From Aporrectodea caliginosa (lineage: Eukaryota; Annelida; Clitellata; Crassiclitellata; Lumbricidae): a DNA stretch of 64,000 bases. The notes under the pieces are model-generated. The model was not told the origin of the DNA, ran no database searches, and worked only from the letters and a program-made list of their open reading frames with translations. The position numbers and the translations under genes are program-made. Location: contig JACEVL010000019.1 in assembly GCA_020284085.1 (NCBI GenBank), positions 3,773,997-3,837,996 on the forward strand, given 5' to 3'. This document shows, one piece after another, positions 1-45,565 of the stretch (the stretch's first letter is position 1; the number at the start of each line of letters is the position of its first letter).

Positions 1-426
1 TTTAAAGGTAGGTCGATTAGCAGACAGAGTTCGCACTCAGTGACACCTCGGGTGCCAAAAACATTTTAGACAGATTTTTTTAATGATTAATGGGTATGAC
101 ACACAAATATGATAACACCTCTCCTCTCCTCTTCTCTGCTCTGCTCTCATACTCTAATATAAGCTGGGTGTACGAAAATGAAATAGATATTAACGAATTC
201 ATCTAACTTTTAATCTTGATATTTTCTCCTCATTGACGATTATTTCGAAGTTGAGTTGTAACTTTTGGAACTGCATCGCAAAATGCGTTATATTCTTTCG
301 TTACTAACTGCATTAAATTTTCGGTTTGACTTCGTCATATTATGGTCATATGTAAAGTAATGTGAAGACAACAGATGTGTCGACTATAATAATATTATAT
401 CATTTCGTTAAACTCTGGATACGCCT
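1..426. other. AT-rich sequence, no gene seen
   Basis: No recognisable coding domain, RNA gene or terminal repeat. Reading frames here are short and have no family signature. Confidence 0.5.
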
Positions 427-458
427 ATTGTTGTTGTTGTTGTTTTTATTATTATTTA

Positions 459-529
<71 letters not shown>

Positions 530-557
530 AAACCATTCATTTTTATTATTATTATTA

Positions 558-600
<43 letters not shown>
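427..600. repeat. (ATT)n microsatellite
   Basis: Two runs of ATT separated by a short interruption near 530-545. The long Ile or Leu/Asn peptides that translate from both strands are artefacts of the repeat. Confidence 0.97.
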
Positions 601-616
601 TTTACAATCCAATTCG

Positions 617-786
617 ACACCTTTAAATCGTTTCTAAACGACGCTACAATAACTGCAATTTCTTTAAGTCACACGTAAACTCCGCCACTGTTCGCTTTCT
701 GACAGTGCCAGTCCCAAGCCTGGATAAAGGAGTAGGGCGACGCTAATAGTCCTTGTTACCAAACAGGTAGTCGTTAAACAGAAAAC
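617..786 (+). repeat. LINE 3' block followed by SR1 copy
   Basis: Positions 617-650 hold ACACCTTTAAATCG with GACGCTAC about 15 bases later, the block found upstream of LINE tails in this window. Positions 684-786 are an SR1 copy. SR1 is a repeat of about 105 bp running from CTCCGCCACTGTTCGC through TGCCAGTCCCAAGCCTGG and GGAGGGCGACGCTAAT to TCGTTAAAC. It has no tRNA A/B boxes and ends like the LINE tails, so it is probably a LINE-mobilised or LINE-end repeat. This copy has one base change in the GGAGGAGG core. Confidence 0.7.
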
Positions 787-1162
787 CACCACCAGTCACA
801 CGTATTAAAATTTGTCTGAGTAACTTATACGGTCGACTTATTGGGCGCAAGATGTCGTTTAAAGACAAGAGTCAACTAATAATATTAAAATCTACTTCGA
901 CACCTTTAAAAACGTACTAATCGAGGATATATAAACCGTTGAACTTGAATCTTGTCAGTTGTTAGATATGTGTTTCGACTTTCCGCTGATAGTCCTAAGT
1001 GTGATAAAATCGACGACAACTGCCATGTGAGCCACAATATGTCGTTAGATATGTATAAACTATTTAAATTATATATTATTATATTTGCTATTATACATAT
1101 TATACATATATACATAAGCTGTAAAAGCTCCTTTTAAATACATAAAATGCAGAGCTCAATTT

Positions 1163-1253
1163 ACCCTGCCAGTGCCAGTCTCAAGCGTGGATAAAGGAGG
1201 AGGGCGACGCTAATGATCTTCGTTATCACACAGTGTCGTTAAACTGAAACTAC
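1163..1253 (+). repeat. SR1 copy
   Basis: 5'-shortened copy with the full core and the ending TCACACAGTGTCGTTAAACTG. A LINE tail has inserted just after its 3' end. Confidence 0.75.
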
Positions 1254-1261
1254 TACAATTT

Positions 1262-1321
1262 TTGTCGTCAACAGCCTTTGGTGGCATAAGACGACGTTAA
1301 AAGTTGGATTAAATAAAATAA
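1262..1321 (+). mobile_element. 60-bp LINE 3' tail insertion
   Basis: Only the terminal hairpin region (GTCGTCAACAGCC...AAGACGACGTTAAA plus a TTAAATAAAATAA end) is present. ACAATTT flanks it at 1255-1261 and 1322-1328, as expected for a target-primed insertion truncated almost to the 3' end. Confidence 0.65.
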
Positions 1322-1339
1322 ACAATTTCATTTATACTA

Positions 1340-1975
1340 CAATAATACAACAGTACTTTGTTCCAATAAGAATACTAAAGTTATGATCTGAAACCAAACT
1401 TTAAACAATTGTAATACATTACAATGCTCATGTAATTTCTGTCACCCAATGAAATTTATTTTCAAGTGTTTAACATACCTGAACAGCCTAAAATGGTGAC
1501 TTTGTAAACTACCTGTTTCATTTAACATGCATACTTTGTGTGAAATGGTTTTTATATTTGAAATATGATATGATTGCGACAATAAATGTTGTCACTAGAT
1601 GACATTAAACTGAAGATTAATAAATAATCACTGAAAATTGGAAGCAGAATAAGAATCTAATGTCATAATTAATGATTATACTTATAATCATAAATATGTA
1701 TAATGCATTTTTGATTAAAGTTGTGCTTTTACATATCTTGTATGGTACCATTGCTATAGAATATTGTTTTATTGGCATCAAATCATTTAATCACAAAATG
1801 TATATTATTAACAGTGTCATATGCATTACTTAATGTTGTTGAAATAGTGACTTTGTAAGGACTGTTTTTACACCTTTAAATGGTGTCTTTTCGACGCTGT
1901 AAGTTTCTCTTTTCATTGTATGTTACACATTGTGTATTGTCGTCAACGGCCTTTGTATTGATATCATAACCTTGG
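1340..1975 (+). mobile_element. LINE 3' UTR relic
   Basis: The segment ends with GTGACTTTGTAAGG, ACACCTTTAAATGGTGTC, GACGCTGTAAGTTTCT and GTCGTCAACGGCCTTTG. This order and spacing match the 3' UTRs of the better-preserved LINEs at 11292-12787 and 58700-59707. No coding part is recognisable. The 5' limit is uncertain. Confidence 0.55.
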
Positions 1976-2024
1976 AATGGTAATAGTTTCATTAAATTTT
2001 ACCCAAAAGGTCTAAACATAAACT

Positions 2025-2290
2025 GGACGCCGCTACTGGCTCAACTCGTGTAGTGCAAGTCCTAAGCCTCAAAATTAAGGAGGGCGACATCTTAAACACT
2101 GTATAATAATAGATGAAAGACAGTTCTCATCCATACGCCCTTCATTATAAACTATTAATTTATGTGGCGCGTTTATTTTATTTAATCCCATCATAACCTA
2201 TTATCATTGTAAGATACAGCCGATATCAACGGCCCTTGCTGCCGTAAGATGTCGCTATAGTCTTTAAATAATTTGAATAACACTGCAATA
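2025..2290 (+). repeat. Degraded SR1 and LINE tail
   Basis: 2025-2100 is a decayed SR1 (GTGCAAGTCCTAAGCCTC, AAGGAGGGCGACATC). 2205-2285 resembles a LINE tail (CAACGGCCCTTGCTGCCGTA, AGATGTCGC). Confidence 0.5.
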
Positions 2291-4090
2291 AAAATAAGCC
2301 TTTTTACAGCGATATATTTAGACATAAAGTGTATACGTATGATCGTATATGCAGGACAGATCAAATGCGAGTGCATCTATAAATTAACATTTATATATTT
2401 CCGTTTGTGTGCATACGTGAATGAGAATTACATGAAATATATAGGCTATGTCTTTCAACATGCAAACACCCGAAAATTGAAGTTTCTGCAGAAATTTAAG
2501 AGGAAGACCCAGATGTTTCAACACCGTACTCCGTCACTACCCTACCTGCTGATTGTCTCTCTGTCTGTCTGTCTCCGTCTCTGTCTGTCTCTAACACACA
2601 ATGTATATATATACATATATATATATTAAATATATATACATATATATAGGGATTATACTATACATTGATATACATGTAATATATAGGATTCAACATGGCC
2701 TCATAATTGCTTAACGTTCACGCCTATTTCCCAAACAATCTGTCAGATTTTTAAACGTGGTGATATATGGATATTCTTCTGCAGTCATCCAGTGCACGAT
2801 TCAAATGTATTGTACCGCAATATAACTGATAATTATTTCTATAACTTTCTGCTAGTGGTAACTGTACTTAAATTGGCAGTTTTGTTGCGCCGTTTTGTTA
2901 CACTAAAACTAACAAAAGAGCTCAAATGTTTAAATTTGGGCTGACTGATACTAGTGTAAAAAATGTAAGTAGTTATCCGCCGAAAAGTCTTCATTTGATG
3001 ACTTATATTTAAATATTTACGCATTAAAATGCAGAGTCTTATAAACACCCATATATTGTTATCAATAGGTAATATAAAGGGCCATAGGGTAACCAATGAT
3101 AATCAATCTTTACCACCGCTGGTTTAAATTGTCAAAAATAATTTGAAAGAAAATTATACCACAAAGATATTCTGCATATATTACATTTTATAGATACCAT
3201 TATGACTTTTGTCCAACTAATAACTCTGAAATAGTTTGTCCACATTGTTTTACACGCACGTACAAAAAGCTACATGTTAATCTGAATAATTCTTAGATTT
3301 GTATTAATATTTAGGTGCATAATTATATACTAGTCATATAAATCATTTTAAATTTGTACTATCTTTATTAATCTAATAGATTTACATAATTTACGCATAT
3401 GATAAATTTTACTTATAAGTAATTCATTTTCCAGTCTGTATATTTTATGTCGATAATAAACGAATATTTCCAAATATATTATATGTATTTTATATGGACG
3501 TGCAAATAAATAAAGTATAATACATATGTGCATGTCTATATATGTAAATAGGTGTATTTGTGCAAATGTATTCGTCCTCCACCTCCTCCACATCTAACAA
3601 AAACGCAGAAATGCTTTCATGAGTGATAATGGATAATTAAAGTTCATTAGACGATTTTAGAATAAACTAGTAAATCTTTTTATATAATGATCTGGGAATA
3701 AATTGAGAGTTGTCCTTGGGTGGAGAATATGGTTGTGTGCTCTAGGTCTTAATTGGTGAGAGGAGATGGGTCGGAGTGGAGGTAGGAGTTGGTGAAGTAC
3801 ATGCTTGGGGTTGTGTAATATGGAGAAAAGGAGTTTCTCCTCTCAGCACCATTTGAAGATACTAACCAGATGGATCTCCAAGGCCTTCTTGAACAACTCG
3901 ACATCTCTCTGGAGTAAATATTCTTACATCCACTCAATACACGCTTACCTGCAGGGCAGGTATCAACCCTGGCTGAATGCGTATGCGAGTGCTCGCCAGT
4001 GGTGACTCTGCTGGTTTAGTTACCTCAGCCTCATTAACCTTTTATTTTTAATGGTATTTAACAGCCTTTGTATTGAAGCAGGCAGAAATG
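2291..4090. other. No gene recognised; short simple repeats
   Basis: Mostly AT-rich single-copy-looking sequence. A TCTG run and a TA run lie at 2555-2650. Small frames near 2839-3096 and 3749-4005 show no domain I recognise. Confidence 0.45.
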
Positions 4091-4194
4091 GCAGGTTACT
4101 AAATACATACACACATGCACAAACATACATACAAATATACATGCATACAGAAAAATATGCACATACATGCATGCATACATACATACTTGTTTCC

Positions 4195-4500
4195 TCGGGC
4201 TGTCACGCTAAGACTAAGAGCGCCTCTGAATAGCTAGTACTGTATAACTGTAAGAGGCGCTTTACAAATTCTCAGATACGATACGATACGATACTTTACT
4301 ATATACAAATACGCACATATATACATACAAATATAAACACATGCAAATATGCACAAACATACATACATACACATACACACATTTACATACAAATATACAC
4401 ACATATATACATACATATATATACGCACATACATACAAAGAAATATGCACGTGCATTTTATACATACATGTACAATTGTACATACATTTTCTATTCAACT
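4195..4500 (+). repeat. SINE 3' end with (ATACG)n and ACAT-rich array
   Basis: 4215-4262 matches the 3' end of the dimeric SINE at 45769-46178 (AGAGCGCCTCTGAATAG, then AGAGGCGCTTTACAAATTCT). (ATACG)n follows directly, then a degenerate ATAC/ACAT array to about 4450. A similar array at 4093-4180 lies before it. The microsatellite starts at the retroposon tail. Confidence 0.6.
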
Positions 4501-4865
4501 AATATCAAATGATGTTACTTAGTATTAGAGGATTATTAAATAGCACAGAGATATATAGGCCAAGCTTGGCACTCACAGTATATAGCCCTATAGTAGGCCT
4601 ATACGTATGAATGCGTTGTAGGGCTACATCGTGTTACATAGAAGTTCAATCTAGGCCTAAGAACTACCGATCCTTTGCCATACACTACACACGAATTGTG
4701 CATAAGTATATTTCGCGTAATAAAAAAGTAATTGCTTTAAATAGGATTACAATATTAAAGTCACAATTGAGCAATAGTAACATTATAAAATGTCAGTGGA
4801 TTACAAAATCTGTCTAGATAAATCAGTAAAAAATATATAGAGGCGAATGTATCAATGTTTCCGTC

Positions 4866-4990
4866 GTGTTATTCATTCATCATCATCATCATCCGTTCCT
4901 GACGCCAGCCATTTTGGCGGCGATGAGTACGAATAAATTATCTACATTGTCCTCGGTCATTTGTCAAGTCAATTGCTTCCCTTAGCATTA
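4866..4990 (-). mobile_element. RTE-type LINE 3' end, fragment
   Basis: Shares GGTACGAATAAATTATCTC-like sequence and CCTCGGTCATTTGTCAAGTC with 47019-47165 and 47462-47645. On the minus strand the longest of these copies encodes an AMDLTKLTEDN-like stretch, resembling the end of RTE reverse transcriptases. A CAT run marks the tail. Confidence 0.5.
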
Positions 4991-5218
4991 GTATATATTA
5001 TATTCATTTATATTGTGATTATATATCCATATAATTTATCTATGCTGCAATAAATAAATGTGATTTATAAGAATATTATGTTATTGCAGCAAATACACTT
5101 ATATTCATAGAACGTACTCTATTATACGTTCTCTTATTTAAGACACAAGATATTAAATAACTTGTCTATACATTTTATGTTATATATTCAGTATGTATCA
5201 TACTGATGACAACTGTTG

Positions 5219-5440
5219 GATCCACAGTTTAACGGCAGCTTATGACAACATAGGCCGTTGCCGCCGACAAAGATTAGTTTTTGGCATAATGACAACTGTT
5301 GTTACTTTCTTTTCCTTACAAAAATTGCATAAAAATGCTGATAGAGGTGTCGAAAAAGTCGTTTGAGATTGAAAGAGTGACTTTTATGCTGGCGACCTAT
5401 TCAGGAGACGTATAAACGGAAACATACTTTATGACCGATC
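5219..5440 (-). mobile_element. LINE 3' tail relic
   Basis: Minus-strand tail with GTTTAACGGCAGC, CATAGGCCGTTGCCGCCGAC, and further in a GATAGAGGTGTCGAAAAAG block. The same pair of blocks occurs at 62571-62703. Confidence 0.6.
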
Positions 5441-5767
5441 ACACCTTTTAATGACATGGAAATTTTTTACCTGTTCCTCTACGATACCAAACACTCTGCT
5501 GAATGATCTTTCGGGTTTTTTCAAAGAAAAAGGTGTCATAACTGTACAGGTGTCATTTGAATAAGCATTTTAAAAGAGAATTTGAATAATTCGCTTCTGA
5601 TTAATTATAGTAGTACAACAATAATAATATATAGAATATGATACGATATATAATATAAATATTATTAGTACAATTATATCAAATTTTATTAAGATAGCTA
5701 AGAGGGCTGCGCATGCGTTAACAACCAGAAAGGCGCCATATAAATTGTCTCAAATGCATATATATAT

Positions 5768-5814
<47 letters not shown>

Positions 5815-6260
5815 TACGTACAAGCTTGCATGTATTCATAAATAAACGCATACATAAATACAAACGTATAATAAATACATATATGCATACATTCATAAAT
5901 AAACATTCGTACATGCATACATACATATTTAAATAAATACATAAGTAACTACATGCACACATACAAACATGCATAAATACATGCATACGTATATGTGTAC
6001 ACAAATATTTAAGTAAATGAATAAATGAATAAATGAATAGATAAATACATTCTCAAATGCATCTTTACATGCATTAAGTTAATTTATACACTTTACAGCC
6101 TTGAACGCACACGCTTAGGTCAGCTAGAAAGCCATGCCATCATCTTTTAAAATGTAATATTAAGGCGCTTTATTAAGAATCGTAATACATATATAGCGAT
6201 ATATATACACATTAATTTACTTCACTGCAATATAAGGCAAATGGCGATAAATATAATATA

Positions 6261-6291
<31 letters not shown>

Positions 6292-6345
6292 GTTTATATC
6301 GAACCATATTTAAAATCCTTAACGTCTTATATATTACACTCGATT
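5441..6345. other. No gene; AT and ACAT simple repeats
   Basis: (TA)n at 5757-5812, a degenerate AAATACAT-type array at 5815-6045 and (TA)n at 6252-6292. The rest shows nothing recognisable. Confidence 0.6.
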
Positions 6346-6430
6346 AAGCAGAACTGCTCAAAAATAGTTACACACCTCTTTTAAACGTAATATTCGACTT
6401 ATAAGTAACAGCAGAAGAGCTGTTCACAAT
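6345..6430 (+). repeat. Dispersed ACACACCTCTTTTAA block
   Basis: Carries AACTGCTCAAAAATAGTTAC, ACACACCTCTTTTAA and CTTATAAG in the order seen at about eight other places (6930, 10721, 14777, 15633, 17123, 18603, 54163). The copy at 54163 runs into an SR1-like ending, so it belongs to a retroposon family. Confidence 0.5.
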
Positions 6431-6484
6431 AATAATATTTTGCCCTACAGATGGAGTTACTACCATTGTTGACTGCCATTGTTG

Positions 6485-36485: not shown

Positions 36486-36760
36486 CTACAGGTCAGGTGA
36501 CGAGTCACGTGACGACGAGCGTCGGCCATCTTGGTCGGCCATATTGAGTTCCTTGATCAGTTCCCGTTCCTTCTTCAGTTTCATTCGTCGGTTCTGGAAC
36601 CAGATCTTGACCTGCCGTTCGCTGAGGCAGAGCGCATGCGCGATCTCGACCCGTCTCTTTCGCATCAGGTAGTGACAGAACTGAAACTCCTTTTCCAGTT
36701 CGAGCGTCTGGAACCGCGAGTATGTCTGGCGACCTCCTCGCCGATGCAACGAGTTCGGAC
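36486..36760 (-). CDS. Lox2/Lox4: Hox gene, exon 2 (homeodomain and C-terminus)
   Basis: Encodes the 60-residue homeodomain (residues 194-253 of the predicted protein), a DNA-binding helix-turn-helix of a nuclear transcription factor. It keeps Q50, N51, W48, F49 and R53 of helix 3 ([15 protein letters not shown]) and the LELEKEF core. KKER is followed by ELIKELN, matching the UbdA peptide position of Ubx/abd-A and lophotrochozoan Lox2/Lox4. Unusual residues are G3, C23 (normally N), M27 (normally T), V32, S41 and V45. The C-terminal tail is 25 residues after the homeodomain, Ser/Asp-rich, ending SPDL and TAG at 36488-36486. Acceptor: TATGTTCCAG/GTCCG at 36762/36760; two bases complete a Gly codon begun in exon 1. 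Frames on the other strand over this exon are shadows. A TTTATT (minus AATAAA) at 35870 is a weak poly(A) candidate. Confidence 0.93.
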
Positions 36761-36959
36761 CTGGAACATAGCGCAGGAACAGGCGCTATAGAAGTACGTC
36801 TTAGCAAATCTCGTCATATCTCATTGCTATGTCTAACGGAGACAGAGACAGACAGACAAACGGACAAGCGGAGAGACAGACAAGTAGACAGGCAGACAGA
36901 CGGAAGGACGAACAGAGAGACAGAGACATAGGGTCACGTGACTCGTCGTCTGACCTGTA
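36489..36959. repeat. Inverted repeat flanking the homeobox exon
   Basis: 36489-36515 (the last codons and stop of the Hox gene) is repeated inverted at 36933-36959 with only a few changes. TCACGTGACTCGTC and TGACCTGTA occur in both arms. The arms enclose the homeobox and its acceptor. Confidence 0.85.
36839..36930. repeat. (GACA)-type microsatellite in the Hox intron
   Basis: Imperfect GACAGACA words starting about 75 bp upstream of the exon 2 acceptor, ending at the inverted-repeat arm. Confidence 0.9.
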
Positions 36960-37395
36960 AAGTCAATGCCCAATGAATTCTATACCCAATTAAGTCAATA
37001 CCAAATGAAGTCTATATCCAATGAGTCTGTACCCACTGAATTCTCAATCAAAGAAACTTGATATGGCACCCCTTCAAGATATACTATGAGGCTCTCTATT
37101 TCCAGTGAAGTCTATACACAACAAGTCTATCAATGAAGTCGATACCATATGAAGTCTATATCCAATGAATTCCATACCCAATGAATTCTATTCACAATGA
37201 AGTCTAATCTATACCCATTGAAGTCTATACCCAATAAAGTCTATACCCAACGAAGTCTATACCCAATAAAGTCTATACCCAACGAAGTCTATACCCAACG
37301 AAGTACTCTATACCCAACGACGTCTATACCCAACGAAGTCTATACCCAACGAAGTCTATACCCAATTAAATCTATACCCAACGAAGTCTTGTGCA
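36957..37395. repeat. AGTCTATACCCAATGA minisatellite, right block
   Basis: Continuation of the 36106-36430 array. It is most regular at 37200-37390, where GAAGTCTATACCCAAC units are nearly identical. Confidence 0.93.
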
Positions 37396-37884
37396 TTAGA
37401 CACATTATAGACATGTGTATATATATAAATACCCTTTGCGTCACGTTGACTCGTGACGTGCTCTGGCACGCCTCTTCACCAGATATTTCCCAACGGTCGT
37501 TTGACGGCGCCACAGTTCAACGATGTTGGTCCCACCCCTCCCCACAACATACACCCCTCCCACTTCACCCACCATCCACCACCCACCCTCTTGAACAGCG
37601 CGGTTCATGTTTGGAAGCCGTTAGCGTCGTGGCTTTGGCTATACGTACGTGATTAAAGGAGTTTGGCATCGTGAGCCGTCATCATTCACCCTCTCTCTTC
37701 CGTTGCCACACGCAACGCCTTTGGGTAAGAAGAAGAGGGTGACGACCGATGATGGCTGCATCGGTCGATTGACCAGAAGTCTCCTCTGCCTCTCAACAGA
37801 GCATCGCTGATTCGAATCCACAGGAATGCTTTCGACCTGGCTGATCGCTCTTTGACTGCTTTTGCCTTAATTTAAGCGACATAC
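37396..37884. other. Intronic sequence, no feature recognised
   Basis: Contains a C-rich stretch CCCACCCTCTTGAACAGCGC near 37585 and CACGTTGACTCGTGACGTG near 37441. No domain recognised. Confidence 0.4.
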
Positions 37885-38530
37885 TGGAAGGGAAGGGAAG
37901 GCAAGGCAAGGGAAGGCAAGGGAAGGGAAGGCAAGGGAAGGGAAGGGAATGGAAGGGAAGGGAAGGGAAGGGAAGGGAAGGAAGGGAAGGAAGGGAAGGG
38001 AAGGGAAGGAAGGGAAGGGAAGGGAAGGGAAGGGAAGGGAAGGGAAGGAAGGAAGGGAAGGGAAGGAAGGAAGGGAAGGAAGGGAAGGAAGGAAGGGAAG
38101 GGAAGGGAAGGGAAGGGAAGGGAAGGGAAGGGAAGGAAGGGAAGGGAAGGGAAGGCAAGGGAAGGCAAGGGGAAGGCAAGGCAAGGCAAGGCAAGGCAAG
38201 GCAAGGCAAGGCAAGGCAAGGCAAGGCAAGGCAAGGCAAGGCAAGGCAAGGCAAGACAAGGGAAGGCAAGGGAAGGCAAGGGAAGGCAAGGGAAGGGATG
38301 GGAATGCAAGGAAAGGGAAGGGAAGGCAAGGGAAGGCAAAGGAAGGGAAGGCAAGGCAAGGCAAGGGAAGGGAAGGCAAGGCAAGGCAAGGGAAGGCAAG
38401 GCAAGGCAATGGAAGGGAATGCAAGGCAAGGCAAGGCAAGGCAAGGCAAGGCAAGGCAAGGCAAGGCAAGGTAAGGGAAGGGAAGGGAAGTGAATGCAAG
38501 GCCAGCCAAAGCAAGGGACGGCAAGGGCAG
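37885..38530. repeat. (GGAAG)n / (GCAAG)n pentamer tract
   Basis: About 640 bp of GGAAG and GCAAG pentamers with strong strand asymmetry: the plus strand is almost all purine. Long Pro/Ser/Leu and Gly/Lys/Arg frames across it are artefacts. Confidence 0.98.
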
Positions 38531-39640
38531 GGCAGGGCGGGAACTGTTGTCTTCGTGCGTTGTCATATGTCATGTATGACGCTATATAAATTGTAGGATT
38601 AGTATGATATTTTTTTCTGACGATTCGTTGTCTCTGCGATATACATGTACAATCCGTATTTCGATGCTTTTCCTTAGCTATCTTCTCTACTTCATCTTAT
38701 TACCACTCTTCCTTATCTTATCTTATACCTCTCCTTATACCTTGTATCAACGGAAAATATCTCTCTAATCACGTGTGGGTGCCTTCCATTTCCGTTCGAA
38801 GTACACGCAGAGTCTACTCCGAACGTATTACAAGCAGGCAGGCAGACAAATAGACAGACAGACAGACAGGCAGACAGGCAGACAGACAGACAGACAGACA
38901 GGCAGACAGACAGGTAATCGTGAGAGAGACGGAATACATCAACTGGAAGAGGCCATTGGCGAATTCTGTTTCATGGTCTGCGCTGTTGGCCAAACGAAAG
39001 ACATTGAGACTCAACAGAATCACGCAATAGAATCGCAGACAATCGTTTCACGTCATGGAATGTCAGGCAGCATCACCAGAAATCGTGGCTGCCTCGGGGT
39101 CAAGGGCAGTTTGATTAAAGAACCTTTATACAACGTTTTTGATATACACGCCATGTATAAATAACAAAATACATGGACGATGCAAAGTCAAGGCACAGTT
39201 TCGATTATTGTTGTCCCGTCCTGATGCGATTTATTCATTACGTTTCCTAGGAGCGGAAAATCGCATGTGATTAGATAATTTGTAACAGATGCATGTATTT
39301 GTCTGGCTAAGCTTTTATTTAGCGCACCTATATCCATTCGAAAAGCGCAACGTAAAAGCTGGGTGAAAAGTCAAGAACTGGTTTCCGAGTCTTCAGTCCC
39401 AGGCTAGATGTGATTTATGCATCCCATTTGGAGCGATGAGTAAATCGCACGGGATTAGGAAACTAAGACTCGTCTAATTGTAATAAATCTTCGAACGCCA
39501 ATGGTCTTTGGATTCAGAGTGGCTTTTCGTGTCGAACGCTAGATGGCGACACAATGAAAGATGCATGCCGGGAACGGGCTCGACCGGAAATAGTCTGGTC
39601 GGTGGAAGACTAGGAATGGCACTATATAAGGTCTCCGAAT
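38531..39640. other. Intronic sequence; (GACA)n at 38839-38915; SINE-like end
   Basis: 38575-38600 has GACGCTATATAAATTG, and 39610-39635 has GGCACTATATAAGGTC, both like retroposon 3' ends. A TATCTTATCTTATC stretch lies at 38690-38730. No coding domain. Confidence 0.5.
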
Positions 39641-39762
39641 GCATGCATGAATGAATGAATGAATGAATGAATGAATGAATGAATGAATGAATGAATGAAT
39701 GAATGAATGAATGAATGAATGAATGAATGAATGAATGAATGAATGAATGAATGAATGAATGT
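39641..39762. repeat. (GAAT)n microsatellite
   Basis: About 120 bp of pure GAAT, starting shortly after the retroposon-like end CACTATATAAGG. Confidence 0.98.
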
Positions 39763-39814
39763 GGTTCTCTGGTGGATACTGGGGTTTATGATCGTTGGGG
39801 AATGTGGTGACTAC

Positions 39815-40110
39815 TTTAAGTTGTCACTTTAAGTCATCACTTTAAGTCATTACTTTAATTCACTACTTTACAAATGATCAAATACTTGATAAATTATCAA
39901 ATATAATACAATACCTTAAATCATCACTTTAGTCATTACTTTAAGTGTTAACTTTAGGTCATCACTTAAAGTCTTTACTTTAAATCATTACTTGAAGTCG
40001 TCGCTTTAAATCACTGCATTGAGTTATCACTTTAAGTTATCACTTTAAGTTATCACTTTAAGTTATCACTTTAAGTTATCACTTTAAGTTATCACTTTAA
40101 GTTATTTGCC
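39815..40110. repeat. TTATCACTTTAAG minisatellite
   Basis: 13-14-bp units. The first half is degenerate (CATCACTTTAAGT, CATTACTTTAA); seven near-perfect TTATCACTTTAAG units run from 40022 to 40104. Confidence 0.92.
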
Positions 40111-40192
40111 ACTTTTTGATTTGTTTTTATACCATTTAAAGTTCTGTGGTTGGTCAATTCTCCAACAACATTTCTCCCAAAGTTTTCCCTCA

Positions 40193-40257
40193 ACTTGCAA
40201 GAACCGAAGCGCAAATTTCGAAAAATTTCGAAATTTTGCGCTTCGGTTCTCGTAAGA
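40193..40257. repeat. Long hairpin in the Hox intron
   Basis: Arms of about 30 bp (AGAACCGAAGCGCAAATTTC and its inverse) with a 2-base centre and one extra T in the right arm. The loop is too small for a usual miRNA precursor. Confidence 0.85.
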
Positions 40258-40347
40258 CACCTTTATATAGCTTGAGATCGACGATTTATAAACCTACGTT
40301 TTTCTTTCGTACATTGATGAAACTTTTTTTTTTGTTAAGAGCTTTAA

Positions 40348-41415
40348 CACATTGACCGCCACCACGGTTTCAATCCCTACGCCACCGAAATTTGCAAAAA
40401 ATGGAAATTTTTTCTTCACATATTTTAGTACATATATAATTTTTTTTACTATTTTCAACATGTATACATCGCAAAGTGACATGTTTGCAGTCTTGTCTCT
40501 TTGAGGAAACAATGTTCCCCTCAGATTTCAGCTTCGCAGTGGTAGACTTCGAAACATCGAACAACACACAGTGCTGGCTTCGACAAGCACGTTTTGCAAC
40601 AGTGACCTGGTTCCCTTCGAATGCCTTTCATGTTGCTTGGAAGTGACTTCTATCTCACTTGTTGGCAACAAGTCCAGGATGAGTTGTTCAATAAGTCTGG
40701 ACATGTCCAGTGCTTTGTGATGAACAAATGCACGAGACTGATCAGCTGCCACCACAGGGCAAATAGGCCTAATATCATTCAAGAGACTGTGCATTACTTG
40801 CAGTCTAAGCCGTTTCTGCCATTTGATACTGCCACATTCTTGTATAGCAGATACGAAGTTGTCTGTGCTAGATCAAGGAAGCGTAGAACGATATTCCTGT
40901 ACCACTTCAGTGATTTTCGAAGAGGAGAATATTATAGTTAGATGTCAGTTGGTCGCTTCGGTCGACTCCGCACGTCTTGATGTTGCATGTGAGGATGGAA
41001 CCTGGCTTCCATGCAAGCTCTCCTCTGTCTGTTCAATTTCACTGAAGTTGTCAGGTTCCCAGTATGATGTAGCCTAAGCTCAGCATCACTAGGCCTACAT
41101 CTCGTTTGTTCTTCCATTTATGATAACAATCCGCCCGTGTCGACGACAAAACAACATCACCTTTTTCTGAACATTTCGACCAAAATTAACAATGATAATA
41201 AAAATGCGATAAAAAATTTAATTCTTTTCCGATTTTCAAAATTTCTTCGCCAATATGTCACTAGTGTATCGTGCTATTATTACCACGCCAATAGATGTAT
41301 TACCCACACGCCAGATATTATATAGCAACCGTTCTCTGAAGGACGAGTATACTCGTCCTCGGCGTCTGCATAATCTTCTGTAGGACGAGATAACTCGTCC
41401 TTGGCGGTCAATGTG
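40348..41415. mobile_element. TTAA-D: internally deleted piggyBac element
   Basis: Ends CACATTGACCGCCA and TGGCGGTCAATGTG are a perfect 14-bp inverted repeat. The left flank is TTAA (40344-40347); the right flank is GTAA, one change from TTAA. Palindromes GGACGAGTATACTCGTCC (41340-41357) and GGACGAGATAACTCGTCC (41383-41400) lie inside the right end. Encodes transposase remnants on the minus strand. Confidence 0.85.
40390..41070 (-). pseudogene. piggyBac transposase remnant
   Basis: Minus strand, in order: an acidic N-terminal-like stretch (YWEPDNFSEIEQTEES, near 41068-41020); then RKSLKWYRNIVLRFLDLA and TTSYLLYKN (40920-40835), matching the KW....F..LDLA..N.YILYK segment at the end of the piggyBac catalytic domain; then in another frame HKALDMSRLIEQLILDLL (near 40720-40670), matching the H..FR..L..QL segment; then a Cys-rich tail (CKHVTLRC, YICTKIC). 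The N-terminal part and the catalytic aspartates are missing, and stops and frameshifts separate the pieces. It cannot encode an active transposase. Confidence 0.8.
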
Positions 41416-41601
41416 GTAATATGCCAAAACTAATCTTTGTCGGCGGCAACGGCCTATGTTGTCATAAGCTGCCGTTAAACTGTGGACACACATTTATAAA
41501 CCTACGTTTTTCTTTCGTACATTGATGAAACTCTCCGGAAACGTATTTTATAAGGCGTCGATCCTAAGCTATTTAAAGGTGTCTTAGGAGAGCTAGACAT
41601 T

Positions 41602-41990
41602 GGTAAGTAAGTAAGTAAGTAAGTAAGAATATTCTTTATTTGACTACCAGCAAACGCACAGTAGCTTACAGAAAAATAAATAATACAAACATTTATGCAA
41701 AGTCATATAACATTCTCATAATAAAACTTCTTTTAGCAAAGGCATCAATTCTAGGTAGGGTGAGATCATGTGGTCTGGGTCGCGTATTGTATGGAGTGAC
41801 CTTACGGGGAGGGAGGAGGTCGTGAAGGACGTGACAAGGGTTTGAGAGAATTGAACGGAAAAGAGTAGAATCAGCTCTAGAACAGTGTTTGTCGAAACTA
41901 GGAAAATTGGCAGGGAGTAAGCCAGAACGGGTCAATTTTCTCAGAATACCGAAAATCCGAGACCCAAGCATGGGCTCCTTCATTCATTCA
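41602..41990 (-). pseudogene. LINE RT C-terminal fragment with (TTAC)n tail
   Basis: Minus frame: MLGSRIFGILRKLTRSGLLP, then SILSNPCHVLHDLLPP, then YNTRPRPHDLTLPR and FIMRMLYDF. This fits the end of L2/CR1-like LINEs (NP.H.LH.LLPP......Y.LRPR.H...LP). The stop is followed by AATAAAGAATATTC and TTAC repeats. The frame is open over 95 codons but lacks RT motifs. Confidence 0.75.
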
Positions 41991-42054
41991 TTCATTCATT
42001 CATTCATTCATTCATTCATTCATTCATTCAGAGCATTTATATAGCGCCCCTTAA
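41982..42054 (-). repeat. (ATTC)n and SINE 3' end
   Basis: ATTC run, then GAGCATTTATATAGCGCCCC, a SINE end in minus orientation. It is interrupted at its TTAA by TTAA-E and resumes at 44210 (TTAAGAAGCTACTCAGAAGC). Confidence 0.8.
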
Positions 42055-44209
42055 CCTTCGCAGGACCAAGCGGGGTAAATAATTACCCCAGGGGTATTTG
42101 GATGTTGATTGCGGAGCAACTGTGGGGAGTTATAATTTGACGTTTCATGTGTTTACAAGTTAATACCCCAGACATATTCTGACACCATAACTACCTTGAT
42201 CTCATGTTGTGGGGAAAAGATATTTGAGTCCAAAGTGTCATGGGGTAAATATTTACCCCGCTTGGTCCTCGACGTCGTTATTTTTTCGAACATAGGAAAA
42301 AAATATTTTTAAAATATCTGAGCTCAGAAGTAACTTAAAATCATAAATAAAGTGTTGAATCTACCAAAGAATTAAGTTTTGATAGTAGCATAATTGTGGA
42401 GAGTCTACTTTCCAAGATGGCGGCCAATATGGCCGCCAAAAACACAAAAATATGCATATCCCAGCTCATAGACAAGCTATAATAACAAGCGAAGTGGCGA
42501 ATTTAGTATTTTCAAGGTCAGGGATTCAATCTATCGTAACGGCAATAGTATGAGAGTGTTTAATTTCCAAGATGGCGGCCAATATGGCCGCTAAAACACA
42601 AAACTATGTGTATCTCAGCTCACAGGTAAGATACATTAACAAATAAAGTGTCAAATTTAGTATATTCAAGGTCAAGGAATTGACTTATCGTAGTGGCAAT
42701 AGTGTGTTAGTGTTACTTTTCAAGATGGCGGTCAATATGGCGCCAAAACACAGAAATGTGTATATCTCAGCTCATATTTTGCTTTTGGCGGCGTTAATGG
42801 AAGCCATCTTGTATAGTAACGCTCCCATACTATTGCCACTACGAGAAATCGATAAGTTGATCTTGAATGTATTAAATTTGACACTTCTTTTGTTATTTTT
42901 AGGTAAACTTAAAGCTGAAATATGCATGTTTTGTTTCTGCGGCCACATTGGTCGCCATCTTGGATAGTATCATCCCGACACTCTTGCTACTGCGAAAAAA
43001 CGACTGTTTGACCTTGAAATAATACAATTTGACACTTCATTTGCTATCGTAGCTTACCTATCAGCTAAGATATTTATATCTGTGTTTTGGCGGCCATATT
43101 GGCCGCCATCTTGGAAAGAAACACTCGCACACTATTGGCACTACGAGAAATAGATTCCTTGATCTTGAAACTATTAAATTCGACACTTTATTTCTTACGG
43201 TAACTTACCTATGAGGTGAGACATAAATATTTTGTTTTGGCGGCCATATTGGCCGCCATTTTAGATAGTATCAATCTAACACTATTGCAACTACGAGAAA
43301 TCGATTTCTTGATCTTGAAACTATTAAATTTGATCCTTCATTTGTTATTGTAGCCTATTTTGATCTGAGATATACAAATTTTTGTGTTTTTGCGGCCATC
43401 TTGTCCGCCATCTTGGATAGTAGCATTCCTACACTATTGCTACTATGAAAAATCGATTGACTGACCGTAAAATTATTAAATTCGACGCTTCATTTGTTAC
43501 TGTAGCTTGCCTATGAGCTGAGATATGCATTTTGTGTGTTATGGCGGTCATATTGGCCGCCATCTTGGAAAGTAACACTCGCACACTATTGGCACTGCAA
43601 TAAATCGATTCGGTGACCTTGAATCTATTTAATTAGACACTCTATTTGTTATGGTAGCCTACCTATAAGCTGAGATAGACATTCATTTGTTTAAGCGGCC
43701 ATATTGGCCGCCATCTTGGAAAATAACGCTCCCACACTATTGGCACTACAAAAAATGGTATCCTTGGCCTTGAAACTATTAAATTCGACACTTCATTTGT
43801 TGCTGTATCTTGCCTATGAGGTGAGATATGCATTTTGTGTGTTATGGCGGCCATATTGGCCGCCATCTTGGAAAGTAACACTCGCACACTATTGGCACCG
43901 CAATAAATCGATTCGGTGACCTTGAATCTATTTAATTGGACACTCTGTTTGTTATGGCAACTTAACTATGAGCTTAGATATACATTTTTGTGTGTTTTGG
44001 CGGCCATATTGGCCGCCATCTTCGAAAGTAATACTTGCACCCTATTGGCACTACAAGAAATGGATTCCTTGACCTTGACACTATTAAATTCGATACTTCA
44101 TTTGTTATTGTAGCTTACCTGTGAGCTGAGATATTACAAATTTTGGTGGGGTTAAAAATTACCCCGCTTGGACCTCGACGTATCGTAAAATGTTTTGGTC
44201 CTGCGAAGG
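42055..44209. mobile_element. TTAA-E: 2155-bp TTAA element carrying a YY1-motif array
   Basis: TTAA at 42051-42054 and 44210-44213. Ends CCTTCGCAGGACCAA and TTGGTCCTGCGAAGG are a perfect 15-bp inverted repeat. The SINE sequence on the two sides joins cleanly at TTAA, so the insertion is certain in outline. Just inside both ends are GGGGTAA...TTACCCC palindromes (42072-42089, 42242-42259; imperfect at 44148-44165) and a CCCCGCTTGGTCCTCGACG-like repeat (42256, 44162). No transposase frame. Assigned to piggyBac-like elements by the TTAA duplication. Confidence 0.9.
42405..44100. promoter_or_regulatory. Eleven-unit array of YY1/PHO-like and ERR/FTZ-F1-like motifs
   Basis: YY1-type motif AAGATGGCGGC or its inverse GCCGCCATCTT. 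Inverse orientation units at 42414, 42569 and 42722; forward units at 42951, 43102, 43252, 43404, 43556, 43707, 43859 and 44012. Spacing is 150-155 bp within each group. Seven are exact and four have one change. It sits in the larger palindrome GGCGGCCATATTGGCCGCC. TGACCTTGA or its inverse is exact at 42512, 42666, 43009, 43614, 43917 and 44070, with variants in most other units. The binding proteins and any activity are inferred. Confidence 0.85.
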
Positions 44210-44213
44210 TTAA

Positions 44214-44560
44214 GAAGCTACTCAGAAGCGCTCCCCGGCCCAGCCACGACTAAAGAAAAAGAATTGAGGGACTTGTAAAACCCTGCCGGATGGCTCACAA
44301 GTAAAGAGCAGTCCTGGGATTTAATTAGAGTATGTTCGGGGGCTTTTAGGGACATCAGGATAACATTTTAAAAATTATGTAAAAATATTTCTAGACAATA
44401 TATGAATAGAATAATCGGAACAAATAGGGAATGGTTGGTTTCTGCAATGTATCATTTTTCTGGACACCCCTAAATACCTCACCGTACCGTATGACTCGGC
44501 AAGATGAACTGGCGCTATATAAGCTCCATAATACGTTACGCAAATTACTAAATGACTGAC
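44214..44560. other. Intronic sequence near the donor; SINE remnants
   Basis: 44210-44250 is the remainder of the split SINE. 44505-44525 has GAACTGGCGCTATATAAGC, another retroposon end. No other feature. Confidence 0.5.
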
Positions 44561-45122
44561 CGATGACGTTCATCCATGGATAGACCGGAACTTCATTCTC
44601 CATTTCTTCGCCGTTGTTGCTATGGACACCGACGGGCGCCCATCGACCCAGCGACCTCTCCCGGTCGTAATCGTCACTTCCGGTTGCGTCATATCCGTAC
44701 TCGTCGGCGACCGGGATCTGACTTCCGGTCACATGACTTCCGGTCACACGACTTCCGGTCACATGACTTCCGGTCACATGACTTCTGGTCACGTGACCAT
44801 AGGCGTCGTCGGCCTCGAACTGAAGATGGTCCCACCGGAAGTGCCCAGCACCGGCGAATCCCGCAGCATCCGACGATGTGGTCACGTGACATCGGAGCGC
44901 GGTAGAACTTCCGGTCTGTGTCGGGTGTCTTTCAGAACGTGGGTCAGCGGCTCTGACCACATCTGGGTCGAACCCGACCTTCGCTTGACCACCCTCGTTG
45001 GTCCATCCGGACTGATGATGATGATGATGCGAGGTAAGAGAAGCTGCGGCTTGGCTGCTGAAACAGTCACCATAGCAACGGGGCGTTAGAACGTCCATAA
45101 AGTGTGAATGATTGGCGGCCAT
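44561..45122 (-). CDS. Lox2/Lox4: Hox gene, exon 1 (N-terminus to hexapeptide)
   Basis: 187 codons plus one base. The chosen ATG (45122-45120) has AAAATGG context and an in-frame TAG four codons upstream; the next Met is residue 9. The protein begins MAANHSHF and has a His run (residues 32-36), five HVT-G-S-type pentapeptides (residues 110-134), an acidic stretch (EYGYDATGSDDYDRE), and the hexapeptide VPVYPWMNVI with YPWM at residues 181-184. YPWM binds the PBC/Exd cofactor in Hox proteins. The exon ends at ATCG before GTCAGT. With exon 2 the protein is 278 residues, a usual Hox size. It acts in the nucleus as a DNA-binding patterning factor, by family knowledge. The N-terminus is not conserved enough to decide between Lox2 and Lox4. 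Confidence 0.88.
44715..44795 (-). repeat. 15-bp in-frame coding minisatellite in Hox exon 1
   Basis: Five units of ACTTCCGGTCACATG on the plus strand, with single-base variants, encode HVTGS on the minus strand. The 15-bp length keeps the frame. Confidence 0.95.
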
Positions 45123-45565
45123 TTTGACACACTAGCGCCATCTATCATTAGTCGTCGCTTTCCATCTTAAGACGCCACCTGTCGGCAGCTGATAACTTTA
45201 CCTCAGCTTCCTACGCCAGTCGATAGAGGGCTTCTTCCGTAACTGTGTATTCCTACGCTGATAATAACAGCCTCACGTAGTCTGTATCGAGGCGCGTGGA
45301 AAGCAGTCCGCGCTATGCAGGTGAAAGGTCATTAGGCTAACAAACCATTGCAATGACCCGGTGAACCAGATATGAATATATTATATTTTATATATTTTGT
45401 ATTATGTATATTATATGTATAAAACCGTATACGTACTTTGTACATGTATTCTTATGTAGGTAATTGGGTTATTAACGTAATTATAATTTACATAAATATT
45501 CACCACATGCACACACGTGAATATTGAGCACATAGATGAGATTCACTAGAACATATATATACCAA
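45123..45565 (-). promoter_or_regulatory. 5' flank of the Hox gene
   Basis: No repeat near the ATG. CAAAATGGCCGCC overlaps the start codon and resembles the YY1 motif. The stretch 45365-45425 is very AT-rich and includes a minus-strand TATAAAAT near 45385, a weak TATA candidate because of the base composition. Transcription start not determinable. Confidence 0.3.

Follow-up and report, generated by a model that had tools for sequence, protein, structure and literature searches.

The 64,000-nucleotide stretch of DNA analysed here (the window) carries an ordered array of YY1/PHO-like sites within a transposon, and the transposon lies in the intron of a Hox gene. The question raised by this locus is whose interest the array serves. 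In an earlier note on this DNA two options were named: the insertion may act on the Hox gene, as a Polycomb response element, boundary or enhancer, or the transposon may use host YY1 for itself. We addressed this question by examining the anatomy of the element, the number of its copies in the genome, the occurrence of the same repeat unit in other transposons and the conservation of the sites.

Anatomy of the TTAA element and its site array

When one mismatch is tolerated, AAGATGGCGGC is matched 13 times in the whole window, and 12 of these matches are located within 42414–44022 (in shuffled windows the mean number of such matches was 0.53 and the maximum was 3). When the best site of each unit is considered, seven sites are exact (42414, 42569, 43102, 43556, 43707, 43859, and 44012) and four contain one change (42722, 42951, 43252, and 43404), and the twelfth match, at 43392, forms a pair with the site at 43404. 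The motif scan and the shuffles thus confirmed the eleven sites of the earlier note, seven exact and four with one change at a spacing of 150–155 bp. This spacing is maintained throughout the array except at the inversion point, with three sites pointing rightward and the remainder leftward, and an extra, more decayed unit (∼42787–42811) is located at the turning point of the array. Each unit contains two 12-mers that are arranged head-to-tail, with the consensus CAAGATGGCGGC followed by CAATATGGCCGC; the general form of the pair can be written as CAANATGGCNKCCAANATGGCNGC. The ordered YY1/PHO-like sites that had been described are therefore present, but as a head-to-tail pair and not as one site per repeat. 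The extended YY1 site, CAANATGGCNGC, occurs 14 times inside the element (the shuffle mean is 0.01), and the published YY1 consensus, as quoted in PMC1088961, is AANATGGCG. The coordinates of the array, the element and the Hox exons are collected in Table 1.

Table 1. Positions in the window of the TTAA element, its site array and the neighboring Hox exons
Feature	Position	Strand	Remarks
Left target-site duplication, TTAA	42051..42054	.	Flanks joined and copies compared
Non-autonomous TTAA element, 2,155 bp	42055..44209	+	Ends; copies compared
Left terminal inverted repeat, CCTTCGCAGGACCAA	42055..42069	+	Begins CCTT, like piggyBac-type ends
Array, left arm	42413..42745	+	Three rightward YY1-like pairs: 42413, 42568, 42721
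Array, right arm	42783..44140	-	Nine ∼152-bp units; leftward pairs 42787, 42938, 43089, 43239, 43391, 43543, 43694, 43846, 43999
Right terminal inverted repeat, the 15 bases of the left end in inverted orientation	44195..44209	-	
Right target-site duplication, TTAA	44210..44213	.	
Hox coding exon 1	44561..45122	-	Holds VYPWMNVIG; GT donor at 44560; limits by eye
Hox exon 2, homeodomain, Ubx/abd-A class	36486..36760	-	Preceded by AG at 36761; limits by eye

The element with its TTAA duplications occupies 42051–44213 (2.16 kb); the TTAA at both ends had been recognized correctly before, but the extent given for the element was too small. No recognized coding frame is present in the element, in which the longest stop-to-stop frames comprise 106 and 100 aa. 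All six complete copies (the window copy, L015, L017, L045, L051, and L052) have TTAA on both sides, and although the end pattern with which they were located itself contains TTAA, it allowed up to three mismatches, and none was seen. The diverged copy L011 is also flanked by TTAA on both sides. The complete copies L015, L045 (first copy), L051, and L052 are 2,130–2,183 bp long, and L011 and L017 are shorter relatives. The layout of L015, L051, and L052 is the same as in the window, with identities to the window copy of 94.7%, 82.1%, and 96.6%, respectively. L045 (G000:C14:2039500-2045000) contains a 2.5-kb near-perfect inverted duplication (98.4%) of the TTAA element with its flank.

When the flanks of the window element are joined, a single TTAA remains within a short dispersed repeat, and the pattern of the uninterrupted target repeat has 3,283 matches in the genome (e.g. 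CCCCTTCAAGAAGCTACTCAG, compared with CCCCTTAAGAAGCTACTCAG in the joined flanks). As the uninterrupted target repeat is common in the genome, insertion at a TTAA is well evidenced. The ends of piggyBac-type MITEs start with CC[C/T]T (PMC2872659), and the window element combines a TTAA duplication with short inverted ends of this kind. Of 1,806 candidates, those that were scored include at least 116 matches to piggyBac transposases, and in many of these the frame is open. Among the matches listed, none was located by eye within ∼15 kb of a listed TTAA-element end, and in these lists no coding element was seen to share the ends of the TTAA element. Several groups of the transposase matches share the same score and frame length, suggesting recent bursts in the genome.

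Copy number in the genome and the Hox gene at the insertion site

A genome-wide search for further copies, as proposed in the earlier note, returned hundreds of them; such abundance, if random in its spread, is among the three outcomes that the note would count against its proposal. In the 1.098 Gb that were scanned, with reversed patterns as controls, exact AAGATGGCGGC was found 11,169 times (105 for the reversed control), TTAA followed by the left end of the element (28 bases, up to three changes) 520 times (none in the control), and exact 21-base site pairs 4,250 times (none in the control). These counts of motif, left ends, and site pairs rule out that the array is unique. With the left 280 bp as the query, the best 40 of 1,279 candidates were all 98–100% identical, the window copy included, and at least 39 other copies are 98–99% identical to the window copy over this region; the best-40 set is a selected one, and older copies also exist, as shown by L015 and L051. 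The window copy is a member of a numerous family with many recent members. If copies were evenly spread, 0.03 left ends and 0.25 exact pairs would be expected per 64 kb, and on that footing a single insertion in one intron would be unremarkable.

The position of the element in the intron of a Ubx-class Hox gene, as described earlier, was borne out by splice sites read by eye and by comparison of the Hox protein with solved structures, among which Ultrabithorax was the first of the best matches, which also included abdominal-A. The intron spans 36761–44560, and the element is located in it 347 bp from exon 1. In exon 2 the homeodomain is followed by IKELN. The relatives of the protein include homeobox proteins from Lottia and Aplysia, of which the Aplysia protein bears the name abdominal-A homolog. 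In molluscs and annelids, the label Lox4 is used for proteins of this kind.

The Hox gene has several further features. Two adjacent YY1-like sites (AATATGGCCGACCAAGATGGCCGAC), which encode NMADQDG, are present in the exon end past the homeodomain (36521–36545, minus strand), and a divergent relative (P0124) has NMADKDG at this place. The probable start codon lies within the YY1-like AAAATGGCCGCC (45114–45125, minus strand), which is similar to the TISU start element as well. The homeodomain (36486–36760, minus strand) departs at several positions from most of 13 relatives, for example where these have FNHYLTRKRRIE, which could reflect either a divergent paralogue or a fast-evolving lineage. 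In exon 1 (44719–44797), a 15-bp tandem repeat encodes repeated HVTGS.

The repeat unit in AcademX-like coding transposons

The ∼152-bp unit of the window type recurs in coding transposons of this genome, whose long inverted ends are built from it. In family A, each inverted end contains approximately two to five copies of a 153-bp unit, and the unit consensuses of the window element and family A align end to end. Open frames with 96–97% protein identity to the query piece encode 1,472 aa in locus L033 and 1,403 aa in L034. At the likely N-terminus, the first ATG is in phase with the long frame in L033 but not in L034. The L034 element spans 334–6436 (6.1 kb) and has a CTC target duplication, and the left end of L033 lies beyond the sequence stretch examined. 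Identical 3-bp flanks were observed in eight of the nine distinct family A elements for which both ends were located (16 loci examined), with L028 as the exception.

A profile of nine frames of this genome matched Exonuclease 1 with an E-value of 3.5e-5, the nuclease being of the XPG type, and seven acidic positions of the nuclease region are unchanged in all nine aligned proteins. With single sequences, the Pfam XPG_I family was matched by one frame only (E 0.02); Pfam analysis of the coding protein gave weak matches only, plus one unrelated fusion, and neither single protein pieces nor a 45-protein profile had a convincing relative among solved structures. AcademX transposons are described as having 3- or 4-bp duplications and a nuclease where AcademH encodes a helicase (PMC10045372). 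The coding elements are called AcademX-like here because of their XPG-type nuclease domain and 3-bp target duplications. The conserved acidic residues 453, 456, 851, and 855 are candidates for the Academ DDD/E residues, although this assignment is only suggestive. The ends of the coding protein are cysteine-rich, among them the C-terminus, where a motif of this sort goes by the name CXC. In the protein collection, 403 relatives of the coding protein were found, and those named among the matches listed include proteins from Patella, Chionoecetes, Paramuricea, Petrolisthes, Nymphon, and Actinostola. In viral contigs no site pair was found, and none of the 17 pattern matches of the protein scan is a relative. 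Six related open frames (1,312–1,562 aa, 32–37% identity) are located in loci without YY1 arrays (L041–L044, L046, and L049). One of these loci, L041, carries a different tandem array with a period of 179.

In none of the six array-bearing TTAA loci (L011, L015, L017, L045, L051, and L052) was an AcademX-like end found; in the window element the ends are unrelated to those of AcademX, and the duplication is TTAA. Comparison of the TTAA loci with the family A loci thus places the same array in elements with unlike ends and target duplications. This is also visible in the first eight places among the exact AAGATGGCGGC matches, three of which are in TTAA-type elements (L001 and L002, which form one array, and L004) while L006–L008 lie by family A ends; as judged by eye, L005 is part of a family D-like pair and L003 part of another head-to-tail pair. 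Two array loci, L012 and L019, showed neither a TTAA-type nor an AcademX-like end.

The site pair persists between families A and B. Family B, with 48% protein identity and 160-bp units, retains the pair as CAAGATGGCGTC-CAAGATGGCTGC, and the best alignment between its unit and the window unit spans the pair and ATATCTCAGC (score of 53; the maximum in 200 shuffles is 31). The units of families A and B align over the pair alone (score of 38; the maximum in shuffles is 26), and family A differs at the ATATCTCAGC box that the window-type unit shares with family B. Family D (∼35% protein identity) contains an inverted pair, and its resemblance to the other units is only suggestive (its scores were reached by 10 of 200 shuffles for family A, 4 of 200 for the window unit, and 6 of 200 for family B). 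Within families, when units are picked without using the pair, its conservation in the window-type units is 0.84 and that of the rest of the unit is 0.77; in family A, the pair falls outside the best-kept windows of the unit. In twelve hand-read sites, 12 of 17 differences are located at positions 4 and 10, which are the free positions of CAANATGGCNGC (p ∼0.002, a value that counts only positions unfixed by site recognition and treats sites that are not independent).

Private changes in individual copies were also compared between the pairs and the remaining sequence. In the window copy they affect 6 of 252 positions in the pairs and 29 of 1,724 positions elsewhere (Fisher p 0.44), in a comparison of limited power (if the pairs changed half as fast as the sequence outside them, six changes or more would be expected with p 0.02). 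The pairs do not differ from the rest in L015 (7/253 versus 64/1,757) and L052 (4/250 versus 29/1,710) either. In L045a there is an excess in the pairs (6/252 versus 3/1,698) and in L045b the pairs are free of changes (0/231 versus 12/1,600), L045a and L045b being 98.8% identical parts of one inverted duplicate and thus not independent.

Possible roles of the site pairs and comparison with known systems

In the interpretation that we favor, and to which we give somewhat better than even chances, the pairs would be promoter or enhancer sites through which host YY1 acts on the transcription of transposons, and their carrier in the window would be a non-autonomous TTAA element that landed in the Hox gene incidentally. 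Of the two options named at the outset, the one in which the transposon uses host YY1 for its own purposes is the best reading of the present sequence evidence. The feature in the window would be a foldback-like non-autonomous transposon with piggyBac-type TTAA ends and an interior of ∼152-bp units, which may have been taken from, or be common to, the long inverted ends of AcademX-like transposons in this genome. The transposase gene of the coding elements would be preceded by paired YY1 sites in an array and, in inverted orientation, followed by them, and the pairs would recruit host YY1 and so drive or boost transcription of the transposase, as the monomers of mouse L1 Tf do. A piggyBac-type transposase probably moved the TTAA element, whose interior is the array, and the landing in the Hox intron would be one of hundreds of insertions, most likely incidental. 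The sequences themselves show the anatomy, the copy number, the target duplications, the unit common to the TTAA element and coding transposons, the pair retained in families A and B, and the YY1-like and piggyBac sequences of the genome; YY1 binding, its transcriptional role, the direction of transfer, and the mobilizing transposase are inferred.

Host-YY1-driven transcription is favored because of a site in the leader of the coding elements, precedents in human promoters and L1 Tf, and the presence of YY1-type loci in the genome. In L033, the stretch TGACGTCA-AA-CAAGATGGCCGCC, which includes a YY1-like site, is located ∼140 bp before the start codon, and the same stretch is present in L034. 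We take TGACGTCA to be a CREB/ATF site, and the YY1-like site beside it is placed like a core promoter. Among the loci examined, the TGACGTCA block was found in L033 and L034 only and was absent from all others. In L033, the terminal sequence occurs a third time, as a partly degenerate copy (703–880) between the array and the gene, and since the leader YY1-like site closes this copy, it is not independent of the ends. Human promoters have YY1 sites near and downstream of start sites (PMC1088961), and in mouse L1 Tf the promoter activity of the monomer is reported to need its YY1 site, with monomers cooperating through YY1 (PMC11602158). Three host loci contain YY1-type zinc fingers in two parts each, with 87–93% and 74–86% identity. 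Both C392 parts are stop-free, and stops are present in both C113 parts and in one C497 part, where they perhaps correspond to exon edges or decay. Several observations weigh against host-driven transcription: the array is present at both ends of the coding elements, and sites for a transposase can occur in long inverted ends; six related frames are open in loci without arrays; the pair is only mildly better kept within families; the leader site depends on the terminal copy and its block is confined to L033 and L034; the resemblance of family D is marginal; two of the three YY1-like loci have stops; and the TTAA element lacks a coding partner among the matches listed. In the TTAA element, which has no recognized gene to drive, the array may be a passenger, an aid to accessibility, or part of some mobilization step. 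A broader scenario is tentative and, taken as a whole, rather doubtful: a YY1-pair cassette traded between AcademX-like and TTAA/piggyBac-type elements, which belong to two unrelated superfamilies, would drive the transposase and, with more than 10,000 exact sites, load the genome with YY1 sites that possibly compete for YY1 or link promoters and enhancers, with up to three host YY1-type genes.

The alternative that survives best is that the pair is a binding site of the AcademX-like transposase, subterminal as in Galileo, of which the TTAA element holds a captured copy. Several such sites in long, internally repetitive ends would then confer specificity on the transposase, as has been proposed for Galileo. 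The position of the units in inverted ends, in mirrored orientation, would be expected of such sites, and the THAP domain of Galileo is described to bind sites in tandem repeats of long inverted ends (PMC3688188); the cysteine-rich transposase ends could bind DNA, and in L033 the leader site, too, is part of a terminal-sequence copy. However, the unit is abundant in TTAA elements in which no AcademX-like end was found (six loci) and which must be mobilized by another transposase, the 12-mer agrees with the YY1 consensus and most of its variation falls at the free positions, and the related frames in array-less loci are likewise open. We consider transposase docking unlikely, but with a substantial minority chance. 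Much less probable is a tandem repeat with no role, a satellite-like passenger spread by foldback elements in which the pair was kept only through recent amplification. The foldback transposon Tetris is described as having given rise to a satellite in Drosophila virilis (PMC4079207), and within a family the pair is hardly better conserved than the rest of the unit, but the best alignment of the A and B units keeps the pair, and that of the window and B units keeps the pair and one downstream box.

A role of the insertion as a Polycomb response element, boundary or enhancer of the Hox gene would be suggested by its position in the intron close to exon 1, by the YY1-type loci in the genome and by 24 GCCAT cores in 2,155 bp (the shuffle mean is 4.8). 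The recruiter motifs of fly Polycomb elements also include GAGAG, YGAGYG, RRGGYG, and GAAAA, and none of these is enriched in the element, in which GCCAT alone is, although motifs defined in the fly may not be valid for this animal. Stronger fly Polycomb elements show a weak tendency to contain several GCCAT cores, but the extended YY1/PHO motif of the fly goes with promoter binding and not with the strength of binding at Polycomb elements (PMC4091789). A Hox-specific Polycomb element was rejected, and the regulatory role proposed in the earlier note is unsupported and to be regarded as very improbable, since the insertion is one of hundreds of copies (520 left ends, at least 39 others nearly identical to it over the left 280 bp), its site pairs show no excess conservation (p 0.44), and the other fly motifs are not enriched. 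A warning follows for similar loci: genome copies should be counted before clusters of YY1/PHO sites close to Hox genes are called Polycomb elements.

Among known systems, the coding elements resemble AcademX in their XPG-type nuclease domain, 3-bp duplications, cysteine-rich C-terminus, and size (6.1 kb in L034), as far as AcademX is described in PMC10045372, and the window element differs from AcademX in its lack of a recognized gene and in its TTAA ends. By description only, it can be compared with the CMITEs of corals, which also have TTAA duplications, CC[C/T]T ends, and tandem arrays, and whose interiors are better conserved between families than their ends; CMITEs, however, are ∼100 bp long, and the window element is 2.16 kb long, with an inverted array of ∼152-bp units (PMC2872659). 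Long, internally repetitive inverted ends with repeated sites are shared with Galileo and Foldback-like elements, the sites of Galileo being protein-binding. They are bound there by the THAP domain of Galileo's own transposase, whereas the motif in the present elements matches a host factor, its predicted ligand (PMC3688188). An array that is common to differently ended elements is a natural test of whether subterminal repeats serve transposase docking or host transcription. A literature search, mainly of freely available papers, returned no description of YY1-site arrays in the ends of Academ or other DNA transposons; two papers contain the motif, and judging by their titles neither deals with transposons. 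A close parallel is the 5′UTR of mouse LINE-1 Tf, a promoter region of tandem monomers that each contain a YY1 site with a GCCAT core (PMC11602158). L1 Tf is a retrotransposon with a 5′ array, and the elements described here are DNA transposons with arrays at both ends and two predicted head-to-tail sites per unit. Should the present elements be driven by host YY1, promoter arrays of tandem YY1 sites would have arisen not only in mouse L1 but also in DNA transposons, and YY1 would be a hook that selfish DNA has used repeatedly across animals.
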